Positions 32,388 to 45,491 of a stretch of DNA of 45,766 nucleotides are shown here, in pieces. Origin of the DNA: Peloplasma aerotolerans (GTDB lineage: Bacteria > Bacillota_I > Bacilli_A > Acholeplasmatales > Acholeplasmataceae). The stretch spans positions 1 to 45,766 of the forward strand of contig NZ_JASCXW010000016.1 of the NCBI RefSeq assembly GCF_030012175.1, given 5' to 3'. The notes beneath the pieces are model-generated. The model did no database searches, was not told where the DNA came from, and saw nothing but the letters and a program-made list of their open reading frames with translations. The position numbers and the translations under genes are program-made. The number at the start of each line of letters is the position of its first letter. Within the stretch, counting starts at the first letter, position 1.

Positions 32388-32585
32388 ATGACAGGAACAG
32401 TAAAATGGTTTAATTCAGACAAGGGATATGGATTTATCTCTACAGAAGAAGGCAAAGATGTATTCGTACACTTTAGCGCAATTCAAACTGATGGATACAA
32501 ATCACTTGATGAAGGTAGTAAAGTTGAATTTGATGTTGTAAATAGCGATCGCGGCGAAACAGCTGCAAACGTTATTAAAATATAA
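32388..32585 (+). CDS. Cold-shock protein (CspA family)
   Basis: This 65-residue single cold-shock domain binds single-stranded RNA and DNA and acts as an RNA chaperone. RNP1 is KGYGFI (12-17) and RNP2 is VFVHF (25-29), with the other aromatic positions (Trp7, Phe8) intact. The C-terminal [11 protein letters not shown] is close to the family standard RGPQAANVxKL. It stands alone. It marks the last ordinary chromosomal gene before the accessory region on the right. Confidence 0.95.
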
Positions 32586-32713
32586 TATTCAATGAGTCTA
32601 TAGGTAAGCTCTAAAAAAAGTGGTAAATCAACTTATTATGAATAGGCATATATATCTACTACTCAATTTTTAATTATCTATAAAAACATAAAAGCTCTTC
32701 TCATTCTGATATG

Positions 32714-32770
32714 ATCCCCTTAAAGTAGACACTACAAATAATTAATTGTAGATGTTTATAGAAAGGGGAT
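32714..32770 (+). repeat. Left end of an IS3-like element with nested inverted repeats over the SD
   Basis: ATCCCCTT (32714-32721) pairs with AAGGGGAT (32763-32770), and inside it CTACAA (32732-32737) pairs with TTGTAG (32746-32751). The distal arm contains the SD AAGGGG for the GTG start at 32781. Position and sequence fit the left terminal region of an IS3-family element. No matching right end was found. Confidence 0.45.
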
Positions 32771-32780
32771 TTTTTCTTTT

Positions 32781-33194
32781 GTGGGAAGAAAACAAAAATA
32801 TAGTAAAGAGATCAAATTATTAGCAATCCAGAAATATCAAGATGGGTTTAAATCGAAGTGCGAGTTAGCAATTGAACTTGAGTGTAGCATAAAATCGATA
32901 GATCAATGGATAAGAAATTATAAGTCGATAGGAGAGTCTGCATTCAATAATAAACCAAGAAACCAAGCCTATACAAAAGAGCTAAAGACTGAAGTTATTT
33001 TAACTGGTGGATTGTTAGCTGAAAATACATATTGGGTTGTTGCTGACACAGTGGCAATTGGAGTTGGTTCAACTTTCCAAGGTGTTATTCTAACAGCAAT
33101 GAATGTAAGTATGAATACAGGATCATCAATTGTAGGGATGATTTATGCACAAACAAGTGTATCGTTTGATGCAACTACAGCAGCGAAGGCTTAA
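32781..33194 (+). pseudogene. Chimeric ORF: IS3 OrfA N-terminus joined to the end of a DUF3494 (ice-binding type) domain
   Basis: The 137-codon frame opens at GTG 32781. Residues 1 to about 72 are an IS3 OrfA-type helix-turn-helix (GRKQKYSKEIKLLAIQKYQ, then ECSIKSIDQWIRNY). From about residue 73 the sequence changes to a beta-solenoid style, LTGGLLAENTYWVVADTV and GVGSTFQGVIL, then MIYAQTSVSFDATT, which matches the last part of DUF3494 ice-binding/adhesin domains. The join (about 32997) is in frame. The transposase lacks its leucine zipper and OrfB, and the DUF3494 part lacks its signal peptide and most of its fold, so neither is likely to work. A terminator follows at 33255. Confidence 0.7.
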
Positions 33195-33254
33195 TTAGAA
33201 GAAATAAATAGTAAGAAGTAAGAAAATAAGAAGATAATGTAATATTGAAAAGAT

Positions 33255-33283
33255 ACTATTTCTATTAGAAGTAGTGTTTTTTT
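33255..33283 (+). terminator. Rho-independent terminator after the chimeric ORF
   Basis: ACTATTTCT (33255-33263) pairs with AGAAGTAGT (33267-33275), with one G-T pair and a 3-base loop. It is followed by G and seven T. Confidence 0.7.
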
Positions 33284-33812
33284 AGTGTTTTGCTACACTT
33301 TTTTTGATGGATAGTGTGGTGGAATGAAAGACACGCATGTTTAAAGATACATGTGGCTGAATAGTAGTGTGAGTATAAATCACATAGACACACCAACTTT
33401 TTGTTGAATTAGATATCTCATGTAAATTTTTTTATGCTAGAAGAATTGCATAGGTCAATTTTGTAACTATTTAGACAATACATCATCTACAGGTTTTATG
33501 CAAGGAGGTGTTTTTCATTTGGTGAGTTGAAATCAATTCTGGTAGAGAACAACGGATTTTAGATGTTTTCAAGTGATTTGGTAATTTATACTATGTGCAA
33601 TAATAAATACACATTCTTTTTCTTTTTTTATATGTGAACTGAAAAATTCCATAATAACTATTTTAATTTAGAAAAAATCTGGAATAAAAGCCTGAAGAAA
33701 GTGTTCATTGATCATCACCTCATCAATATATCTAATCCTAAAGTAGAAGTCTTGCTCTTTATGTCAACTAAACTATTTTTACATCGATTTTCTATCAAAA
33801 ACAAAGATAAGC

Positions 33813-33893: not shown

Positions 33894-35600
33894 TTGATAC
33901 ATGATTACTTATCTAGATTAGATGATGATGTTTTTTTTGAGTTGTTTAATTCTGAGTTTAGCATAAAAGAATTATCAATCCTTGATATCGATGACTCGGC
34001 AAAATCAAAACTGCATGACAAGAAATTTATAATTAGCAATGCAGGGAACTATTTACAAGAGAAAATAATTAGTAATAACAAATACTTAACATTAATTTGT
34101 ACTATACTAGATTCGAATGAACAATCTGATTTATCATTGAAACTATTTCAGCGAAATTTGACTGCACAACAATTTTTGGCAGATGTTTATAGTTTAGATT
34201 TAAATGATAAAAAAATTATAAATATACTTAACTCATTTTTTGGATTGCACCACAATCCAAAATCTGACTCTATTGAATATAAAACTCACTTTCAACATAA
34301 TAAGGGTAATTTTTATGAACTACTAAATTACCAGTTTATTGCTAAAGAGCAGATAATATCAATATTAGACACTAACAAAATTTTACCTAGAATGATTTTA
34401 CACATGCCAACTGGGACAGGGAAAACAAAAACAGCAGTACATACAGTTATACATGATTATGTTTTTAACAAACAAGGTAAAGGGATTATAATTTGGTTAG
34501 CTCATACACATGAGTTACTTAAACAGGCATATAAAGCATTTGAGAATGCATGGAATGTACTAGGCAAAAAAGATATTAATGTCCATTTTAATGATATAGA
34601 TTCAATTGACACAGAATACAGTGTATATTTTATTAGTTATCAAAAACTAATATCAACACAAAAAAATAAAACTGATTATTTCAAAAATATCAGGAAAAAT
34701 GCTGTTGCTATAGTAGCGGATGAGGCACACAAATGTTTAGCTGATGAAACTAGAAAATCTATTGAGCAGTTGATGAGGATGTTTGAGTTTGATAACAACA
34801 AATATCTGCTTGGATTGACCGCAACGCCTGGTAGACAACTTTTTAATTTTGATGAAAATATGGAGAATCAAATACTGTCAGAAATGTTCGAGAAACGTAT
34901 TATTAGCATCAATCCTGAAAAGATTGAATCCATCAGAATTGATGAGAGTCTCTTGATAACAGACTCAATTAAAAATATTTTTGATAACGATACTAAAGTT
35001 ATTCATTATTTTCAAAAAAATAGAATTCTTGCAAAAATAATCAGAGAAGAAATAGAGTATCGAGAGTCTGTTGTGGAAGTCGATAAAGCTAAATTAAAAA
35101 AGAGTGCATCTGGTGATTTCAGCCGTATAGTTTTAGATAAAATATCTAAATATTCATCTAGAAATAATACAATTATAAGAAGGCTTATTAAGTTACATAA
35201 TGAAAAAGTTCCAACTATATTGTTTGCATGTTCTGTTCAACATGGACAATATTTGGAATTAATTATGTCATTATTAGGTATCTCTGCTGTAGGGGTATAT
35301 GGACATACTTCACCAATTACAAGGGATAAAATAATTGATGGTTTTAATAATGGAGAGTTTAATATCCTTATTAACTGTGAAGTTTTGACTACAGGTTTTG
35401 ATTCTCCAAGAATAAAATGTGTTTTTATAACTCGACCCACCAATTCAATTGTCCTTTATAGTCAAATGCTTGGAAGAGGACTAAGGGGACCGCGAATGGG
35501 TGGAAACGAGACATGTTTATTGATTGACATAAAAGATAATCTTGGCAAATTTTCTGATGAAAATCAAGCTTTTTCATATTTTGAGGAATACTGGAGGTAG
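33894..35600 (+). CDS. SF2 DEAH-box helicase, first gene of the putative defence operon
   Basis: This 568-residue helicase starts at TTG 33894, five bases after AGGAGGGG. The first 165 residues are helical and of unknown family. Then come motif I MPTGTGKT (171-178), motif II DEAH (276-279), motif III TAT (309-311), TTGFD (499-503) and motif VI QMLGRGLRGP (524-533). The layout resembles ResIII-type helicases of restriction and anti-phage systems rather than replicative or repair enzymes. There is no nuclease motif. The GHKL gene follows after 9 bases. Likely role: translocating on or unwinding incoming DNA together with the DUF262/HNH protein. Confidence 0.85.
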   Translation: MIHDYLSRLDDDVFFELFNSEFSIKELSILDIDDSAKSKLHDKKFIISNAGNYLQEKIISNNKYLTLICTILDSNEQSDLSLKLFQRNLTAQQFLADVYSLDLNDKKIINILNSFFGLHHNPKSDSIEYKTHFQHNKGNFYELLNYQFIAKEQIISILDTNKILPRMILHMPTGTGKTKTAVHTVIHDYVFNKQGKGIIIWLAHTHELLKQAYKAFENAWNVLGKKDINVHFNDIDSIDTEYSVYFISYQKLISTQKNKTDYFKNIRKNAVAIVADEAHKCLADETRKSIEQLMRMFEFDNNKYLLGLTATPGRQLFNFDENMENQILSEMFEKRIISINPEKIESIRIDESLLITDSIKNIFDNDTKVIHYFQKNRILAKIIREEIEYRESVVEVDKAKLKKSASGDFSRIVLDKISKYSSRNNTIIRRLIKLHNEKVPTILFACSVQHGQYLELIMSLLGISAVGVYGHTSPITRDKIIDGFNNGEFNILINCEVLTTGFDSPRIKCVFITRPTNSIVLYSQMLGRGLRGPRMGGNETCLLIDIKDNLGKFSDENQAFSYFEEYWR

Positions 35601-35609
35601 TGTTTAAGA

Positions 35610-37376
35610 ATGAATAACAAATCTAACAATAGAAAAGAAATTTATAATGTTAAAGGTATGGCTGAAAGTGCAAGGTACACAGAATACAAACACCTAGAGA
35701 GTGCTATTTCAGAAATAGTGGATAATTCAGTTGAAGCAACTGCAGATAGAATAATAATAATTATTTCAAATAAACTTAATCCATTGACTGGTAGGAAAGA
35801 AATTAGTGACATCGCTTTTCTTGATAATGGATTAGGAATGGATGTTGACACTTTACATGCATCGTTAGCATATGGAGAAGGTAGTAGAAAAGCTAGAAAA
35901 GGTATGGGAAGATTTGGAGTTGGACTTGCACAAGCATCACTTTTTGCTTGTCCTAGGGTTGAAGTTTACTCGTGGCAGCAACCAGATGAAGTTTATAGTG
36001 TATTTTTAGACAGTGATTTGATGAAAAGTGGTGAGCAAGAATACTTAGATGAACCTAAGCTAACCAATCTTCCTGTTGATTATACAACTTTTAAATCTCA
36101 TTTTAGGTTTAATACAGGAACAATGGTTCTTTGGAAATCAGTTGATAAGTCCTCTGTAAAAACTGTTTCAGCATTAATGAATAGATTAGAGATTGAGTTG
36201 GGAAAGACTTATCGTTACTTCATAACAGGTGGGAGAGTTTCTATATCTATTGTTGATAATGAAAACAAGTCAAATATTAAGAAGATTAAACCGCGCGATC
36301 CACTTTTTCTTATGGAAGATGATTATGCTCTTGCAAACCCTAATAATCCAGGAGAACTATTTAAAGGTGGGAAAAAAGGTGAGCCAATATTCGAAAGATT
36401 CATACCAAAATATACTGCTAATAGTGTAATTGAAAAAGAAATCACTTACTTAAATAGTTATGGTACACAGCTAGAAGCAAAAGTTAAGGTTAAGTTTTCT
36501 ATAGTAAAAGAAAAGTTTTATGTCCTAGGTAAGAGATTCAATAATCCTGGTGACAGTCCTATTGGTAAATACATAAAAGATTACACTGGGATATCTATAG
36601 TTAGGGCAGAACGAGAAGTGGATTGGGGAAAATTTGGATTTTTCGACATACAAAATAGTCCATATCATAGATGGTGGGGAGTAGAAATACAGTTTGAACC
36701 ACTATTAGATGAAATATTTAAGATAAGCAATAATAAACAACATGTTGAGCTAAAAAAACCTAGTTCTTCTGAGATTGCTGAAGCAGAATCCAACCAAACA
36801 GAATTGTTATGGGTTGAGTTGAATAAAATTATACAACCAGGAATAACTGAAATGGTCAATCTAAATAAGGCTAGACAAAAGGGAACAAGACTAAGATTTG
36901 AAGAAGATAGTAAACAAGGTAGCTTAAATGAACCCAAAACAACATCTAATGAACTTAAGGAGAAGCAAATTGATGAAAAACCTACAGGATTGATTGATAG
37001 AGTAATTGATGATGTAATTGGTGAAAATCACAAAAATATTCATAGGAATAAGCTGTTAAGTATACTATCAGAATACACTAATGATTATGGGAAATATTTA
37101 GAGGTAGTTGAAGATAATAAATCGAAAGAACTTCTTAAAGTGTATTTTGAAACTGATCACTTCGTAATTCGAATCAATTCAAGTGTATTAACTGAAGTGG
37201 AATCAAAAAAAATGCTTGATATAAGATACACATCAGGTGTGTTGTTAAAATCCCTCTGTGAGACATATTCTCAACAGAGTGTACCTAAGGAAAGTTACAT
37301 GTTTATTCGTGGATTCACAGAAATGATTAATAATGAGATGCAATTATCACAAAAAAAAGAAGGTGATTTAGATTGA
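35610..37376 (+). CDS. GHKL-type (HSP90/MutL-like) ATPase
   Basis: The 588-residue protein has an N-terminal Bergerat ATP fold: N-box SEIVDNSVEA with Glu35 and Asn39, G1 box DNGLGM (72-77) and G2 box GRFGVGL (100-106). All ATP and Mg contacts are present. Residues about 130-420 form a transducer-like region and the C-terminal 150 residues are charged and unassigned. GHKL ATPases recur in anti-phage operons, where ATP-driven clamp closure is proposed. It ends in a 4-base overlap with the DUF262 gene. It is not MutL or HSP90 proper, since no further family motif is visible. Confidence 0.82.
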   Translation: MNNKSNNRKEIYNVKGMAESARYTEYKHLESAISEIVDNSVEATADRIIIIISNKLNPLTGRKEISDIAFLDNGLGMDVDTLHASLAYGEGSRKARKGMGRFGVGLAQASLFACPRVEVYSWQQPDEVYSVFLDSDLMKSGEQEYLDEPKLTNLPVDYTTFKSHFRFNTGTMVLWKSVDKSSVKTVSALMNRLEIELGKTYRYFITGGRVSISIVDNENKSNIKKIKPRDPLFLMEDDYALANPNNPGELFKGGKKGEPIFERFIPKYTANSVIEKEITYLNSYGTQLEAKVKVKFSIVKEKFYVLGKRFNNPGDSPIGKYIKDYTGISIVRAEREVDWGKFGFFDIQNSPYHRWWGVEIQFEPLLDEIFKISNNKQHVELKKPSSSEIAEAESNQTELLWVELNKIIQPGITEMVNLNKARQKGTRLRFEEDSKQGSLNEPKTTSNELKEKQIDEKPTGLIDRVIDDVIGENHKNIHRNKLLSILSEYTNDYGKYLEVVEDNKSKELLKVYFETDHFVIRINSSVLTEVESKKMLDIRYTSGVLLKSLCETYSQQSVPKESYMFIRGFTEMINNEMQLSQKKEGDLD

Positions 37377-39433
37377 AATCTTCAGCGTTTACAATAAATG
37401 AATATATAAGTAAAATAAAAAACAAAAAAATCATTATTCCAAATTTTCAAAGAGAATATGTTTGGAGTAATGATGATATAAAATTTTTAATTTCTTCATA
37501 CTTTTATAAACTGCAAATTGGAGCTGTCCTTTTCTATAGAAATGAGAAACACAGTGGCGATTTGGATGAAAAAATCCTTCCTTATTTGACATTTGATAGT
37601 ACTGAAATTAAGAATAGTATTGAAGGTTTACCTGATGGGATTAAACACACTTATTATGTGATTGATGGGCAACAAAGATTAACATCAACAATGATTTCAT
37701 TTACTGACTATTTTGACGATAAAAGCACATTAGCAAGAAAATATAAGAGAAAGTATTTTCTGAGTATTCCTTATAAAACTGAAATGTTTGGTTTACGTAA
37801 TCTTGAATTTAAACCTCTTTCTATAGGTGGGGATTATGACTATGAAGATTTCGCATTAAATAACATTGACTATATTTCGGCTAATGAAAAAAATTATCCT
37901 CAAAAACCGAATGCATACATTATACCATTAGAAGATCTTTATAATGATGAGGAGAAAATTAGAAACAACAACATTAGAAAACATGGAGTAAAATTGGCAA
38001 CAGATTCATATTTCAATTTGATTCATGGACTTGATTCGAATGATCCCAAATTTACTGAATATACTGACAAATATGAGCAATGGAAAACAGAGTTTTTCGA
38101 TTATCTTAGGGCTATATTAGAACATGAAATTACATATATCGAAGTGAACGACAATTTACTCGAGGCAATAAAAACTTATGAAATACTAAATAAAAGCGGG
38201 AAACCTTTGACAGATTTGGATATTTTAGCAGCAAGCTATTCGGGAGATTACACATCTAAAGCGTCAAAGGACATGAGACTTTATGACGTAATTCGAGCTG
38301 AGTTTAAGAAACCTATGGGAAAAGGTGAAATCGAAGGTGTTGATATCTATCGTATGTTGAAAAAAACATGCAATCAGCATAAGAATGAACTTGAGACCGA
38401 GCATGAAACAAAAGGGTGGGATTTTTATCGATTTATGATTGATGTAAAAGGTGAGAAAGATATTCCTGCAAGGGTTCTTGAACAGCTAATAAAACTTTTA
38501 AAATACATGAGTCTATCTGAAAAACATTCGAATTCCAGAGAGAAATTTAATATTTCAAAATATAAGTCAAATGAGATTTTGAAGTTAACTGGGAGTGAAA
38601 TAGATCAATATATAAAGAAATCTATTGATAGTATAAGTTGGGCAGCTATGTTGCTTCAAATAAGATGTGGGTTAAAAGACATAAATAAACTCAATTATTT
38701 TTGGCAACTGTTCGTAATTGCTGCTTTAAAATTTGAAAAACCTAAAATGTCAAATGATGATATTGATACTATAATTGCTTGGTATTTTTTATCGAGATTT
38801 AGCGGTAGATATAGAATTGATCAAAACTCTAATGCCTTAAATGACCTTGAAGGTTTAATCTTACATATAAAAGAAAATACACCATATATAAAGTTAACTG
38901 AAATGTTAAAAGAGATTAGAATTAACACTAATAATATAGATTGCAGAGAATTAAGAAGAGAGATGTTAATTCCTAAAAGCGATTTAATTGAGCCTTATGA
39001 TAAAATTGGTGACTTTATATGTGAGTATTCTATAAGAAATGGCTATGACAGCAAGATATTGATTCAAAACGGTATAGAAATGTTTGTGTCAACATTACTC
39101 TATCCTGTTACAAGTAATGAAAATTTTGCACTGAATATACATCATATTTTCCCGCTAGATCAGAATAAAACAATTGGTGAAAATACAGAATATTTGCGAA
39201 ATGACAAGAAGAATATATACAATTCACCACTAAATAAAACTTATTTAACGTTTAGTGAGAACAATTATATTGGCACAAAAAAATTATCTGACTATTTTGG
39301 AAAACTGAGCAATACATTTATCAACGAATCAAGTATTTCTAACGGGTCTTTGTTAAATGATTGGTTGGATGAGAGATATTTGATGTTTTTTAACAAATTA
39401 TATAATGAACTTAAACTTAATTTAAAAATATAG
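37373..39433 (+). CDS. DUF262/DUF1524-type (GmrSD/SspE-like) protein with HNH motif
   Basis: This 686-residue protein starts at TTG 37373 in a TTGA overlap and has SD GAAGGTGA. The N-terminal DUF262 domain shows PNFQREYVW (23-31) and the nucleotide-binding DGQQRLT (98-104). The C-terminus has HHIFPL (His590-His591) and NSPLNKTYL (617-625), fitting the DUF1524 HNH nuclease. GmrSD cuts modified phage DNA, and SspE uses the same pair of domains to nick DNA while sensing phosphorothioate. This is therefore the likely effector nuclease of the cluster. The middle (about 200-560) is helical and unassigned. Confidence 0.83.
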   Translation: MKSSAFTINEYISKIKNKKIIIPNFQREYVWSNDDIKFLISSYFYKLQIGAVLFYRNEKHSGDLDEKILPYLTFDSTEIKNSIEGLPDGIKHTYYVIDGQQRLTSTMISFTDYFDDKSTLARKYKRKYFLSIPYKTEMFGLRNLEFKPLSIGGDYDYEDFALNNIDYISANEKNYPQKPNAYIIPLEDLYNDEEKIRNNNIRKHGVKLATDSYFNLIHGLDSNDPKFTEYTDKYEQWKTEFFDYLRAILEHEITYIEVNDNLLEAIKTYEILNKSGKPLTDLDILAASYSGDYTSKASKDMRLYDVIRAEFKKPMGKGEIEGVDIYRMLKKTCNQHKNELETEHETKGWDFYRFMIDVKGEKDIPARVLEQLIKLLKYMSLSEKHSNSREKFNISKYKSNEILKLTGSEIDQYIKKSIDSISWAAMLLQIRCGLKDINKLNYFWQLFVIAALKFEKPKMSNDDIDTIIAWYFLSRFSGRYRIDQNSNALNDLEGLILHIKENTPYIKLTEMLKEIRINTNNIDCRELRREMLIPKSDLIEPYDKIGDFICEYSIRNGYDSKILIQNGIEMFVSTLLYPVTSNENFALNIHHIFPLDQNKTIGENTEYLRNDKKNIYNSPLNKTYLTFSENNYIGTKKLSDYFGKLSNTFINESSISNGSLLNDWLDERYLMFFNKLYNELKLNLKI

Positions 39434-39436
39434 TAC

Positions 39437-39536
39437 TGGAGATGTCTTCTCCAATAAAAAAATGTTATAATAGTGGTAATTAAAAATGTTGCTGCTATTT
39501 TTTTATAAAAAATGCATCATGGAGATTAGTTCTCCA
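39437..39536 (+). promoter_or_regulatory. Internal promoter flanked by two copies of hairpin TGGAGA-N5-TCTCCA
   Basis: TGGAGA-TGTCT-TCTCCA (39437-39453) and TGGAGA-TTAGT-TCTCCA (39520-39536) share both arms exactly and differ in the centre, 83 bases apart. Between them lies TATAAT (39466-39471). The first copy covers the -35 region and the second lies in the leader, just before the SD of the DUF4007 gene. Neither is followed by a T-run, so these are operators or RNA elements, not terminators. Confidence 0.6.
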
Positions 39537-39551
39537 TAAGAAAGGTATGTT

Positions 39552-40409
39552 ATGAGCTACGGAAGACATCAAAGTTTTTATTTGAAAAATCATTGGATCA
39601 ACAAAGGACTGAAAGCATTAAAATTAGAAGAAAACTGGCAAGTTTTGATTGATAAGCATGGGTATAAGGATTTAGGGATTGGAAAAAACATGCAACAATC
39701 CTTGAGATATTGGCTTGAAGCAACAAAAATCATTGAACTATCGGATGATAAGAAGTCACATAAGTTAACTCACTTTGGAGAACAAGTCGATAAGTTTGAT
39801 TCTGGATGCACATACTACTTCACACTATTATTGATACACTACTTTTTGACAACATCAGTTGAAAATAGTGGAGAACCTATATCTCACTGTTTCTATTGGT
39901 TTTTTATTGAAAACAAAGATCATTTCTTGACAAAAGAGAAAATCAAAGAGGGATTATTGAATTTTAGTAGTCACAATATAGCTGATAATACGATTAATAA
40001 AGATGTGGATTGTTTGATTCAAAGTTATACTAATAAAGAAAAAAATCATCCCGAGGACAAGAATGTATCACTATTAGCGGATTTAGGTCTTATTAAACGT
40101 GATAAAACATTTTATGTAAAGTCTAGAATTCATATAAATAGGCAAAGTGCTTATGCATTTTATTATGCATTAGTATTATCAAAAGATGATTTTATTTATA
40201 CAGTTGATTTAGTCACACAAAATATAGGAAGTGTTTTTAATTTAAATCGTACAGAAGTTATCGAACTGATTGAAATACTTCTTGAAGAGTCTTTCCCGAT
40301 AAATTTGACTCGAACTAATAATTTGGACACTGTACAAATTAAAGAAATTAGAAGTAACAAAGAGTTGTTACAATATATTTATGAAAGGGCTATAAAGCAT
40401 GAGAACTAG
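39552..40409 (+). CDS. DUF4007-family protein
   Basis: The 285-residue protein matches DUF4007 at its start: YGRHQSFYLKNHWINKGLKAL, read here over 3-23, corresponds to the family pattern H-E-T-F-x-L-R-x-x-W-x-x-K-G, and LGIGKNMQQSLRYWLEA (41-57) to its G-V-G-K-N-M-x-x-S-I-R-Y-W segment. DUF4007 genes are known to sit beside PAPS-reductase-like genes, as here. The K-N-M-x-x-S-I-R-Y-W segment resembles a DNA-binding helix, so it could bind the duplicated hairpins upstream, but that is speculation. Biochemical function is unknown. It overlaps the ATPase gene by 11 bases. Confidence 0.75.
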   Translation: MSYGRHQSFYLKNHWINKGLKALKLEENWQVLIDKHGYKDLGIGKNMQQSLRYWLEATKIIELSDDKKSHKLTHFGEQVDKFDSGCTYYFTLLLIHYFLTTSVENSGEPISHCFYWFFIENKDHFLTKEKIKEGLLNFSSHNIADNTINKDVDCLIQSYTNKEKNHPEDKNVSLLADLGLIKRDKTFYVKSRIHINRQSAYAFYYALVLSKDDFIYTVDLVTQNIGSVFNLNRTEVIELIEILLEESFPINLTRTNNLDTVQIKEIRSNKELLQYIYERAIKHEN

Positions 40410-43400
40410 TATAAATATTAAGTATGATATAGGGAATGCTGAATTAGTTAAAAGTTATTATGCAACAAATACTCACTCTGAGATTATATCAGGAGTTTTA
40501 CAAGGTTTATTAGGTTCTAAAACAACTAAAGCGCACATCGCTTATGGTCCTTATGGAAGCGGAAAATCATATATAGCATCAATTTTAGCAAGCTTACTAA
40601 GTAAAAATTTCACTGCAGGCGATCTCAAAACGATAACCCAAAAATTTAGTCTTGTTGATGATTCCACAACTAAAAATTTCCAACAGTACTCAAGACACAA
40701 TATCAAGTATCTCCCTGTCATATTAAATGGATATGAAGGAAATTTTAATGATGCAATAATTAAAGCATTAGAAAAAACGATTGTAAAATATAATACTAAA
40801 ATACTATTACCAGGTATTCATAATTCAATTCTAAAAGTAATTAAAAGGTGGGAAAAAGAGTATCCTCACACATATTTTTTGTTTGAAAGAGAAATTAATG
40901 CTATAGATTTAAACCTCGAAGGGTTCTATAATTTAATAGAAGTACGAGATGAAAATATTGTAGATGTTTTCTATACCATTCACAGTAAACTCACAGCAGG
41001 AGCTGAGTTTTCATCCTATGAAGGATTGAATTTTATTGAAATCATTGAAAACGTTTCTACTCAGCTCTATAGCAAAAAAATGGGGTTATTCTTTATATAT
41101 GATGAGTTTGGGAGAATGTTGCAAAACATAAATTCAGAAAACATAAATAATTTCATGCAATCATTACAAGATTTAGCGGAACTCGCTAACAATGGGAGTA
41201 AAAATTTGTCTGTTTTGTTTATCGCACACAGACCAATTAATTACTACTTTACTTTTGCGAGTAAAGAGTTAAGATCTGAATTTGCAAAAGTCGAAAAACG
41301 TTTCTCAGTTTATGAAATCAAGAGTGATTATATAACTTTTTTACAGATAACACACGGGTATATTGATTCTAAATTGAAAAATAAAAATGTTGTTTCACAT
41401 GACTTGATTAATGCAACACTTAAATTCAATGTCTTTTATGGGATACTCTCTGATACTGAGGTGGAAAACATAATAATAAATAAGTTATATCCATTGCATC
41501 CCATTTCGACATATCTGTTACCAAGAGTATCAAGTGTTTTTGGTCAAAATGAACGAACACTATTCTCTTTTTTGTCGGATCAATCTTCATATGGGTTAGA
41601 CAAATTCTTAATTAATAATAACGAACTTTATTATCCCGATTATTTAGTAGATTATTTTATCAATGGGATTGATGATTCATATGTTGAAGATGTAAAAGAA
41701 TATGGAATATTTAGAAAAAACTATTCAAATATCTCCACATTAATAAATAGGAAATATGTGGATAGCGCAAAAAGAATATACAAGTTTCTCCTTATATGGA
41801 AGATAACAAAAAGCACGTCTGGAGTAAAATTGTCATCTGAATTTGTTGCCTATTCTCTAGGTATTGATATAGATAATGTTGAAGTTGCACTGCAAATGCT
41901 TTCGGATAAAAAAATTGCGCGATTTAATATTATACAAGATCAATGGGAGCTTTTTGAAGGAAGTTCTTTGGATATTAACAAAGAGATTAAGAAAAAGAAA
42001 CAACTAGATGTATTTACAGAAAAAAATTTCATTGACATTCTAGAAAAATCAAACCCATATCATTATGTATTTCCAAATGAATACAACGCTCGGCATGAAA
42101 TGACACGTTTCGCTACAATTCAATTCATAACTGAAGAGTATGCTGAAGAATTTCAAATTGTTGATAAAACGGATTATTCAATTGTTGTCTCATTAGGAGA
42201 AAATTGTCACGTTGAATGTGATAAAAATATAATTAAACCAAAAGAGTCCTTAAAGTTGAGAAGTCAAATTCATCGATTGAAAATAATAAACGAACTCCTT
42301 AAGGATAATGCTTTGCTGAGTGAATATCCAAATGTAGATATTGAGTTGGATTATGAGAAGAATAAAATCATTTTTAATTTAAACAAGTTTTACGAAAATC
42401 TTATTTTTTCTGAATTTAAAAGTCATAATCAATTATCACGGTTTTTAAGTGATGAAATGGAAAGAAAATATTATAGAACTTTACATATAGTTAATGATCA
42501 AATTAACATGTTTTATTTGACTTCAATCCAAGCAAATGCAGTAAACCTTGTTCTAGAAAAAATACTTGAAAATCTTTCAGTTGATTTAGGAAATTTATTT
42601 ACAGGCACAAAACCCGCTGATTTAGTCTTTTATACTGTGATTGAGAAAATGCCTCGAATGAGTAAAAACAGAGTTTCATACGAAGACTTGAGTAAAGATT
42701 TAGATGATTTTTTATTAAAAAACACATCAGGTGATCTATCAGAGTTAATAGAAATAGCAATAAAAGAGCCTTACGGAATAAGACCTAGACTTGCTATTTT
42801 GGTTACTTTCATGATTATCATTGATAAATGGAAAGATGTATTATTATTCAACAAAGGTAACTTTATTCCTCGAATTAATACTGTAGAATTAGTAGATGGT
42901 ATACTATATAACTCTGGAATGAGGTATGTATTCAGTAGATTTGATAACACACACAGAGAATACCTAGAGGGGTTAAATGACTTGTTCGGTGAATCTGGTG
43001 AAAATGTTAAAGCAAGGACCCTTTCTGTCAGAGTTTGCAGCAGCATGTATAACTGGTATCTTAATTTGCCTGTTATAACTCAGCAAATGCAAGATTTGAG
43101 TTTATCTGAGCAAAAGCTCTTAGGCATAATTGCTAAGGCAAGAATTAACCCAAAAGAATCCATAGATGATTTAATAGTTACTTTTGGTGAAATAAATGAC
43201 ATTGTGCAGTTTAAAAACAATCTAGAGAATCATTTTGAAGATTATAAAAATAGGTTCCTTAAGCTTACTTTTAAAAAAATTGGAATACATAATCCTATGG
43301 ATTGGGCAAGAGAACAGCAAGAGATTCATAGAAAAAATAACAGATTAGTTAGAACTATTCTTGCAGGAAGAGACATCTATGATGAATATGCTACAGATGT

Positions 43401-43674
43401 AGAGAACATTGATATTTCAAGATGGACAGTAAGTAGCTTTAAGTCGTTGCAGAGTAGGATTACAGAGGATTTTAATAAGCTTGATAGAAATAACTCTTAT
43501 CAAACTATTGTTGTCAACGGTATCAGCAAATTCGTACAGGATGTTGAGCTTTCGTTAAAAGCGGAAACAACCTTAAAAAATTTGGAAGCAACTATTGACG
43601 CTACAAAAAGATATTATAGTGATGAAGAATTGGAATATGTAATATTGAGTTTAATAGATAAGTATATAAAATAA
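40399..43674 (+). CDS. Large P-loop ATPase of the putative modification module
   Basis: This 1091-residue protein has Walker A YGPYGSGKS (49-57) and Walker B LFFIYDEFG (230-238, Asp235-Glu236). A sensor-like AHRP comes shortly after, then RSEFAKVEKRF, which may contain an arginine finger. The remaining 750 residues are helical and charged with no recognised domain. Size and the isolated N-terminal ATPase recall the large ATPases of BREX (BrxC) and related DNA-modification systems, but I cannot assign a family. Placed between DUF4007 and the PP-loop gene with overlap or short spacing, it is likely a target-selecting or remodelling motor. Confidence 0.78.
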   Translation: MRTSINIKYDIGNAELVKSYYATNTHSEIISGVLQGLLGSKTTKAHIAYGPYGSGKSYIASILASLLSKNFTAGDLKTITQKFSLVDDSTTKNFQQYSRHNIKYLPVILNGYEGNFNDAIIKALEKTIVKYNTKILLPGIHNSILKVIKRWEKEYPHTYFLFEREINAIDLNLEGFYNLIEVRDENIVDVFYTIHSKLTAGAEFSSYEGLNFIEIIENVSTQLYSKKMGLFFIYDEFGRMLQNINSENINNFMQSLQDLAELANNGSKNLSVLFIAHRPINYYFTFASKELRSEFAKVEKRFSVYEIKSDYITFLQITHGYIDSKLKNKNVVSHDLINATLKFNVFYGILSDTEVENIIINKLYPLHPISTYLLPRVSSVFGQNERTLFSFLSDQSSYGLDKFLINNNELYYPDYLVDYFINGIDDSYVEDVKEYGIFRKNYSNISTLINRKYVDSAKRIYKFLLIWKITKSTSGVKLSSEFVAYSLGIDIDNVEVALQMLSDKKIARFNIIQDQWELFEGSSLDINKEIKKKKQLDVFTEKNFIDILEKSNPYHYVFPNEYNARHEMTRFATIQFITEEYAEEFQIVDKTDYSIVVSLGENCHVECDKNIIKPKESLKLRSQIHRLKIINELLKDNALLSEYPNVDIELDYEKNKIIFNLNKFYENLIFSEFKSHNQLSRFLSDEMERKYYRTLHIVNDQINMFYLTSIQANAVNLVLEKILENLSVDLGNLFTGTKPADLVFYTVIEKMPRMSKNRVSYEDLSKDLDDFLLKNTSGDLSELIEIAIKEPYGIRPRLAILVTFMIIIDKWKDVLLFNKGNFIPRINTVELVDGILYNSGMRYVFSRFDNTHREYLEGLNDLFGESGENVKARTLSVRVCSSMYNWYLNLPVITQQMQDLSLSEQKLLGIIAKARINPKESIDDLIVTFGEINDIVQFKNNLENHFEDYKNRFLKLTFKKIGIHNPMDWAREQQEIHRKNNRLVRTILAGRDIYDEYATDVENIDISRWTVSSFKSLQSRITEDFNKLDRNNSYQTIVVNGISKFVQDVELSLKAETTLKNLEATIDATKRYYSDEELEYVILSLIDKYIK

Positions 43675-43687
43675 AAGAGGAAACAAT

Positions 43688-44503
43688 ATGAAAAATAGAA
43701 CAGATAAACATGTAATTATGTATAGTGGTGGTGCGTCAAGTGCATACGTAGCAAAATGGGTTGTAGACAAATATGGTAAGGAAAACTGCATATTGTTTTT
43801 CACAGACACTTTATGGGAAGATAAAGACAACTATCGGTTTCTCGAAGAATGTGCTGACTATATAGGTATTGAAATAACAAAACGGATTGATGGTAGAACA
43901 CCAGAAGAAGTATTTTTTGAACAAAAATTTCTTGGTAATGCGAGGTTCGCTCAGTGTTCCGAAGAACTAAAAGTAAAACAAACATTAATATATATAGAAG
44001 ACTTGAGGATGGAAGACTTTGAACCAATATTATATTTTGGTATTGATCCGAAAGAAAAACATCGGGCAGATAGTCTTACTAGGCATTATGAGCATTTTCC
44101 ACTTGAACCAGTTGAATGTAGATTTCCAATGATAGATTCAATTAGTGGTGACATTAAAGCGAAACAAATAATAGAAAATGAATGGAAGATTAAATTGCCC
44201 AGAATGTATGAGCTTGGATTTCATCATGCTAACTGTTCTGGAAGATGTGTTAGAGCTGGATTTCACCATTATGCAAATCTATACTTGGTATGGCCAGAAA
44301 CATATAAACTTCAAGAAGATATGGAAGAGAAATTCAGAACAGAGTTCAATATGGATGTTTCAATGATGAAAAAAGACGGAAAACCTTATACATTAAAAAG
44401 ACACAGAGAAGATGTGTTAGAAAAGATGAGTAAGGAAGAACTTACAGAATACGCTAAAAAGAAAGATGATGATGGTATTCCATGTTTTTGTTCGTTTTCA
44501 TAA
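43688..44503 (+). CDS. PAPS-reductase-like PP-loop protein (DndC/SspD-like sulfurtransferase)
   Basis: The 271-residue protein carries the PP-loop YSGGASSAY (12-20), which binds ATP pyrophosphate in the adenosine-nucleotide alpha-hydrolase family. FFTDTLWEDKDNYRFLEE follows, as in DndC/CysH relatives. Eight cysteines include Cys90, Cys183 and Cys187 (NCSGRCV), and Cys266/Cys268 at the very end (PCFCSFS); several could hold a 4Fe-4S cluster, as in DndC. DndC and SspD activate DNA for sulfur insertion. No cysteine biosynthesis genes surround it, and its neighbours are defence genes, so a DNA (or RNA) thiolation role is favoured over CysH. It is the last gene before the terminator. Confidence 0.82.
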   Translation: MKNRTDKHVIMYSGGASSAYVAKWVVDKYGKENCILFFTDTLWEDKDNYRFLEECADYIGIEITKRIDGRTPEEVFFEQKFLGNARFAQCSEELKVKQTLIYIEDLRMEDFEPILYFGIDPKEKHRADSLTRHYEHFPLEPVECRFPMIDSISGDIKAKQIIENEWKIKLPRMYELGFHHANCSGRCVRAGFHHYANLYLVWPETYKLQEDMEEKFRTEFNMDVSMMKKDGKPYTLKRHREDVLEKMSKEELTEYAKKKDDDGIPCFCSFS

Positions 44504-44696: not shown

Positions 44697-45491
44697 TTAA
44701 TTTTTTGCTTGAAGTTGTTCAGTTTTGTTTTTAGAGTCTGATAGTATAAGTTGATTATATCGATAAACAAAAAAATTTAGATAATGTTGTAGATATTTCA
44801 ACCGAAATCCTGCATGTTTGAACAAATAGCGTTTGATGTTACTATGCAGCGAGTCAACGATGATGGTAGAATATTCCTCACTATCATTTCTACGCGCATT
44901 AATCTTTTCAATGTCAAACTGATTCATAAATTGTACTTGCTTGGGATTTCCATCATGTAGAAATTTGTTAACTGATCCTATGTTTTGATTGAACAATCTG
45001 ATAAAATCACCAGGGCTTGCCATGCCTCTTGAAGACACTTTGGCTAAGCATAATCCTCTCAGGTTAATCATGGTGATTACACATAACTGATTAAAGGATA
45101 AACCTCTAATATCCTTTCCATCAAGCCGTAAAATCTTATATTTCTTTTCTCTTATACTCAAGAATGTCTCATCAATCATGATACTATCTGAGAGTTCAAT
45201 CTCATCCTGATAGTTGAGAAGCGTGTGAAATACAATATAACGATAATAATGAGCTGTTTTGATATTGATTTCTAAGTTTCTTGCTGCGACATCTAGTGTA
45301 ACATCATCAATCATATAACCAATAAACTTCTTAATTAGTTTTGAACTGTTCTTGAAGTGTTTGGTTGGTGATTGATCAGACATGAATGTTTTTAGGCATA
45401 ATTGGCATCGATATCTTTGAACACCTGATTTAGTCTTTCCATTCTTATAGATATGATTCCCACATAAAGGGCATTTGATTCTATTTGACAT
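44697..45491 (-). CDS. IS1595-like (ISXO2-type) transposase
   Basis: This 264-residue transposase has an N-terminal zinc ribbon (Cys7, Cys10, Cys29, Cys32) and a DDE-type core: Asp107 in MIDETF, Asp180 in FLHDG, then VDSLHSNIK (212-220) and KYLQHYLNFFVYRYN (232-246), the conserved end of the IS1595/ISXO2 group. Length and ends are intact. Translation probably starts at ATG 45489-45491, after a structured leader. SD GGAACG lies 6 bases upstream and is part of an RNA hairpin arm. Confidence 0.85.
   Translation of the reverse strand: MSNRIKCPLCGNHIYKNGKTKSGVQRYRCQLCLKTFMSDQSPTKHFKNSSKLIKKFIGYMIDDVTLDVAARNLEINIKTAHYYRYIVFHTLLNYQDEIELSDSIMIDETFLSIREKKYKILRLDGKDIRGLSFNQLCVITMINLRGLCLAKVSSRGMASPGDFIRLFNQNIGSVNKFLHDGNPKQVQFMNQFDIEKINARRNDSEEYSTIIVDSLHSNIKRYLFKHAGFRLKYLQHYLNFFVYRYNQLILSDSKNKTEQLQAKN

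Follow-up and report, generated by a model that had tools for sequence, protein, structure and literature searches.

Insertion sequences (IS) of the IS3 family with an IS150-like layout possess a separate orfA with helix-turn-helix motifs (HTHs) and an orfB with an rve integrase core, together with short imperfect terminal repeats and a 3-bp target duplication. OrfA of IS3 elements binds the IS ends, and the end hairpins of other ISs are known to block expression from outside transcription. Some IS3-family elements, namely IS1397, ISKpn1 and ISPsy8, insert into extragenic palindromes, the REPs (PMC1525189), and ISs are also known to bring terminators (PMC9208149). In Acholeplasmataceae, the DUF3494 or Ice_binding domain (PF11999) is found in lipoproteins, often together with Big_2.

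In Peloplasma aerotolerans, parts of an IS3-family transposase and of a DUF3494 protein are joined in a single open reading frame (ORF). It is located in the window, the whole stretch of 45,766 nucleotides that was analyzed, which is contig C8 of the host assembly G000, a 2.04-Mb draft of 88 contigs with a completeness of 99.6%. Use of the standard stop codons agrees with a place in Acholeplasmataceae. The ORF is best explained, with a probability of about 0.88, as the relic of an IS3-family IS that was cut short by deletion, most likely without function.

Structure of the open reading frame

The ORF has the coordinates and frame first described, 32781-33194 on the forward strand, with a GTG start codon and a length of 137 aa. 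An initial annotation had read residues 1-72 as a transposase HTH and the sequence from residue 73 onward as the C-terminal end of a DUF3494 domain. HMM searches of the two halves bore this out, each exceeding its Pfam cut-off (24.1 bits for PF01527, 28.7 bits for PF11999). HTH_Tnp_1 (PF01527) was matched at residues 1-67 with 27.0 bits and Ice_binding (PF11999) at residues 68-133 with 52.4 bits, and the DUF3494 tail scored separately gave 48.9 bits. In the protein, the initial third of a transposase OrfA is followed by the final third of a DUF3494 domain.

Only the first of several OrfA HTHs is kept, and of the DUF3494 domain, about 205 residues when complete, only profile positions 140-206 of 208 are present. 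The last 65 residues resemble the DUF3494 lipoproteins of Acholeplasmataceae and are 51-74% identical to the nearest full-length genes, but the signal peptide, Big_2 and the N-terminal two thirds of the solenoid are missing from the chimera. It has no export signal, its N-terminus being the HTH. The product predicted from the sequence would have one DNA-binding HTH and an incomplete beta-solenoid and would lack both a catalytic part and a signal peptide.

The orfB with the DDE integrase core, present in the relatives in G005 and G015, is absent behind the window orfA, and the window element is therefore a remnant and not an intact IS. The right IS end is also absent from the window. Whereas the relatives have the complete IS150-like arrangement, the window holds only the left end and the initial third of orfA, and is likened to this group by layout.

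The ORF had also been credited with a Shine-Dalgarno (SD) sequence and a terminator of its own. Both signals are present, an SD-like AAAGGGG at 32762-32768, about 12 nt from the start, and downstream of the ORF a hairpin with terminator character (-21.7 kcal/mol, z -9.0), which was not listed by a stricter terminator pattern scan and was probably inherited from the DUF3494 gene. The SD, however, is buried in the IS hairpin, and for this reason the ribosome-binding and terminator-like signals do not prove a working gene.

Table 1. Features of the window (positions counted from its first nucleotide)
Feature	Position	Strand	Basis
Cold-shock protein (csp) gene, 65 aa, terminator split by IS	32388..32585	+	Alignment to G014, G017, G018
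Left half of csp terminator, AAAACATAAAAGCTCTTCTCATTC, then IS left end	32683..32706	+	Empty sites in G014, G017, G018
IS left end, TGATATGATCCCCTTAAAGTAGACACT...	32707..32780	+	Boundary equals that of the G005 intact IS and of copies in G015, G087 and own C56/C3
IS left-end hairpin, then T-run; 3' arm holds orfA SD	32713..32771	+	MFE -26.4 kcal/mol, z -6.0
5' part of IS3-family orfA (first HTH only)	32781..32998	+	PF01527, 27.0 bits; about 50% aa identity to the 239-aa orfA of the G005 and G015 IS
Junction microhomology GAAGTTAT	32991..32998	+	Alignment of orfA and DUF3494 relatives in same frame
DUF3494/Ice_binding C-terminal third with own stop codon	32991..33194	+	PF11999 140-206/208, E 7e-14; aa identities over residues 65/70-136
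Terminator-like hairpin 3' of ORF	33254..33283	+	Fold of 33235-33290
SspB-like DUF4007	39552-40409		Defence island
SspC-like ATPase	40399-43674		Defence island
SspD-like PAPS reductase	43688-44503		Defence island

Insertion of the IS into the csp terminator

The csp gene and its 3' flank, up to 32683-32703, align at 87-89% to G014, G017 and G018. These three genomes have empty sites with an intact terminator hairpin, CGCTCTTCTCA..TGAGAAGGGC, and a T-run. In the sister species G005 an intact IS is present in the same csp terminator, in the orientation opposite to that of the window relic. The halves of the G005 terminator were recovered on two contigs, with TGG as the 3-bp target duplication. 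This intact relative is 1.7 kb long with the ends TGATATGATCCCC... and ...CAGGGGGCAGTTCA, which form short imperfect terminal repeats, and encodes an OrfA of 239 aa with several HTHs and an OrfB of 284 aa with an rve core; its match to an NCBIfam IS3 transposase model was 274 bits. Insertion into an extragenic hairpin-forming sequence is shared with IS1397, ISKpn1 and ISPsy8, but the targets proven here, among the few sites checked, are not REPs but intrinsic terminators, namely that of csp in G005 and, in the host, its left half. A precedent for targeting of REPs was found in the literature, and no direct description of IS3 elements targeting terminators.

A search of the host assembly yielded no intact IS copy. 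Besides the copy in the window only truncated left ends are present, with 133 bp on C56 (99% identical), about 70 bp on C3 and 39 bp on C1. The C8 and C56 copies differ most clearly in their start codon, GTG versus ATG, and ATG is also the start in the sister IS copies. The C56 copy (G000:C56:8039-8171, locus L104) keeps about 21 orfA codons and is then followed, in another frame, by an AI-2E transporter gene without its N-terminus and start. This join differs from that of the chimera but has the same outcome, and a similar deletion would have produced it.

The initial annotation had left open whether the IS captured the DUF3494 end by deletion or by insertion. That the IS had inserted into a DUF3494 gene was rejected, since it is the csp terminator that flanks the IS on the left, and upstream there is no N-terminal part of a DUF3494 gene; deletion is the part of the proposal that stands. 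It counts against this history that the original DUF3494 gene adjoining csp was seen in no relative.

Origin of the DUF3494 tail and the junction

The chimera had been taken to show that the lineage once had a DUF3494 protein. It did, but 'once' is too weak, since the search for intact genes elsewhere in the genome found two, on C17 (276 aa) and on C6 (455 aa, with Big_2). Both are lipoprotein-like and start with lipoprotein-like signal sequences, read by eye. Neither is the donor. Over residues 65/70-136 the chimeric tail has an amino acid identity of 74% to G010, 69% to G011 and 67% to G001, and of 61% and 57% to its own paralogues on C17 and C6. In a tree of the 67-residue tails the chimera groups with genes of G001, G010, G011, G045, G076 and G078 with a support of 100/99, apart from the C17 and C6 paralogues, which belong to another type and are thereby ruled out as donors. 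The C6 gene adjoins a GlsB-type gene, as do the DUF3494 genes of G010, G011 and G001. This neighbourhood is thus held by C6, and the donor was therefore an additional copy. The donor was a third DUF3494 gene, whose type is now known only from other species, and the tail is its sole trace in the host assembly. It may be either an old paralogue or an acquired gene. In another genome, a short stretch that resembles DUF3494 and contains an in-frame TAG (G002:C12:80647-80796, L026) is perhaps a decaying DUF3494 remnant.

A clean in-frame junction at residue 73 (32997-32999) had been proposed, and the join does fall within the 8 bp GAAGTTAT, over which it is ambiguous and assignable to either parent. 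At the junction the G005 orfA reads GTGAAGTTATCC and a second OrfA relative CACGAGGTTATAAG. DUF3494 relatives aligned in the same frame read GAAATCACTTTAAC and AAAGTAACCTTAAC at the microhomology, in the contexts GTTGAAATCACTTTAAC and GTCAAAGTAACCTTAAC, and the window reads ACTGAAGTTATTTTAAC. Because GAAGTTAT fits both parents and finer placement is impossible, a microhomology deletion is the simplest and likely cause of the join. The true length of the shared sequence is inferred, relatives standing in for the exact donor sequence.

Probable decay of the IS and alternative explanations

Three steps would account for the locus. The IS would first have entered the hairpin of the csp terminator with its left end beside csp, an insertion shown by the empty sites and by the sister species with an intact IS at this place. 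A later deletion would have run from within orfA, at about codon 71-73, into a DUF3494 gene, taking away the remainder of orfA, orfB and the right end together with the N-terminal two thirds of the DUF3494 domain. The ends would have been joined at or near the 8 bp that fit both sides. The two frames would then agree by chance, giving an open frame of 137 aa from the start site of the IS orfA, now GTG, to the DUF3494 stop. As the similar event on C56 is out of frame, the in-frame join is regarded as luck, with a chance of about 1 in 3; an in-frame and an out-of-frame deletion within the same genome are compatible with chance.

The ORF is judged to be an ordinary by-product of IS decay, given the chance agreement of frames and a start right behind a strong hairpin with the SD in the 3' arm, and its product is most likely little expressed and functionless. 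Against decay, the frame runs uninterrupted through all 137 codons. The DUF3494 tail shows slightly more amino-acid change than its relatives, with a pN/pS of 0.21-0.44 versus 0.15-0.32 among them, and it departs at two positions that are invariant in 15 other sequences; these two results neither prove nor exclude loss of constraint. With an open frame and few odd changes in the tail, the decay is either recent or not proven.

The same open frame and the intact HTH could belong to a young functional gene, such as that of a small repressor that still recognises IS left ends through its OrfA HTH, or of a DNA-binding protein that was domesticated. The known binding of IS ends by OrfA provides a precedent, and remnant left ends do persist in the genome. 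We consider such a gene very improbable, however, as it is known from one genome only, the host has no intact IS to repress, and the DUF3494 tail has no plausible cytoplasmic role. The change from ATG to GTG, the SD within the hairpin and the strong hairpin separating csp from the ORF also speak against it.

A mis-join of short reads, in which an IS end was attached to a DUF3494 fragment, was weighed in view of the draft state of the 88-contig host assembly, the 133 bp of IS left end (32707-32839) repeated on C56, and the intact IS copies that interrupt contigs in G005. The join at 32991, however, lies about 150 bp within single-copy sequence and is not spanned by any repeat. Since single-copy sequence surrounds the join, a repeat-driven misassembly is unlikely. 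The csp flank agrees with the genus, and if flanks had been exchanged at the 133-bp repeat, the assignment of csp to the IS would change but the fusion would be unaffected. An assembly artefact is accordingly given very little weight.

The HTH and DUF3494 were found in one frame in no other of the 88 family genomes (20 of them in the genus), all other matches covering one half. A scan of 84,980 species genomes, which finds close relatives only, returned one OrfA relative and no combined protein, and a scan of viral contigs, likewise detecting close relatives only, returned nothing. Given this absence from the family genomes and the wide scan, the chimera is a singleton and not a two-domain family. 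Combined homologues in many genomes, which would have contradicted the chimera proposed in the initial annotation, were thus looked for and not found. Although the clean in-frame join and the signals on both sides of the ORF would suit a genuine HTH-DUF3494 family with the chimera as one member, this has a negligible probability, as there is no second member and the halves match separate proteins, the DUF3494 half only over the terminal third.

Decay of the IS by deletion would make this locus a case of accidental in-frame gene fusion, matched by an out-of-frame sister event in the same genome. Such ORFs should not be taken for new protein families.

The left-end hairpin as a possible terminator

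A model of the left-end hairpin and T-run was built from 10 copies and searched in the 88 family genomes. Matches were obtained in 19 of these genomes, and about 20 matches were strong. A recognisable orfA follows the hairpin only in G000 C8, G000 C56, G005, G015 C10 and G087, and the other copies break off right behind the T-run or trail off into a few decayed codons resembling orfA. For the 16 strong copies that lack a recognisable orfA, the closest ORF upstream, picked mechanically, has the same direction and lies 7-142 nt before the element. Pairing was found in 93% of cells over 20 copies, and 7 pairs had two-sided changes, a number reached in 0 of 500 shuffles and one that shared descent can inflate. 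No Rfam match was obtained for the window copy, and a known RNA family was rejected at this site.

In many Acholeplasmataceae genomes, hairpins of about 60-75 nt with a T-run and compensatory changes stand alone behind genes of the same direction, at G000:C3 41662, G008:C21, G010:C35, G011:C82, G013:C10, G001:C84, G086:C30, G003:C138 and others.

Solo hairpins are perhaps reused as terminators. We tentatively propose, at somewhat less than even odds, that ISs of this group tend to insert into intrinsic terminators and bring their own terminator-like left-end hairpin, and that after the death of the IS the hairpin of about 60 nt is kept by selection as the terminator of the host gene. This candidate role would extend the known behaviour of ISs, both insertion into palindromes (PMC1525189) and the carriage of terminators (PMC9208149). 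In the surroundings of the chimera, the possible reuse of IS ends as transcription terminators in Acholeplasmataceae could be put to the test.

Other features of the window

Between the chimera and a defence island, a degenerate tRNA-Leu-like sequence is present at 33316-33405, with 82% identity to a C43 region holding tRNA-Leu(GAG); ARAGORN called no tRNA in the window. The sequence might mark an old integration site. A short repeat at 33503-33576 recurs at several G017 contig ends and was also noticed by eye next to the IS remnant of the host's own C1; it is probably the end of another mobile element. The defence island, at 33894-44503, has Ssp-type parts (Table 1), preceded by a RadD/ResIII-type helicase, an MzaB-like ATPase and a GmrSD_N protein that matches SspE weakly. 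Within the island no SspA-like gene was recognised. Past the island, near the contig end, an IS1595-type transposase gene is located at 44697-45491 on the reverse strand.
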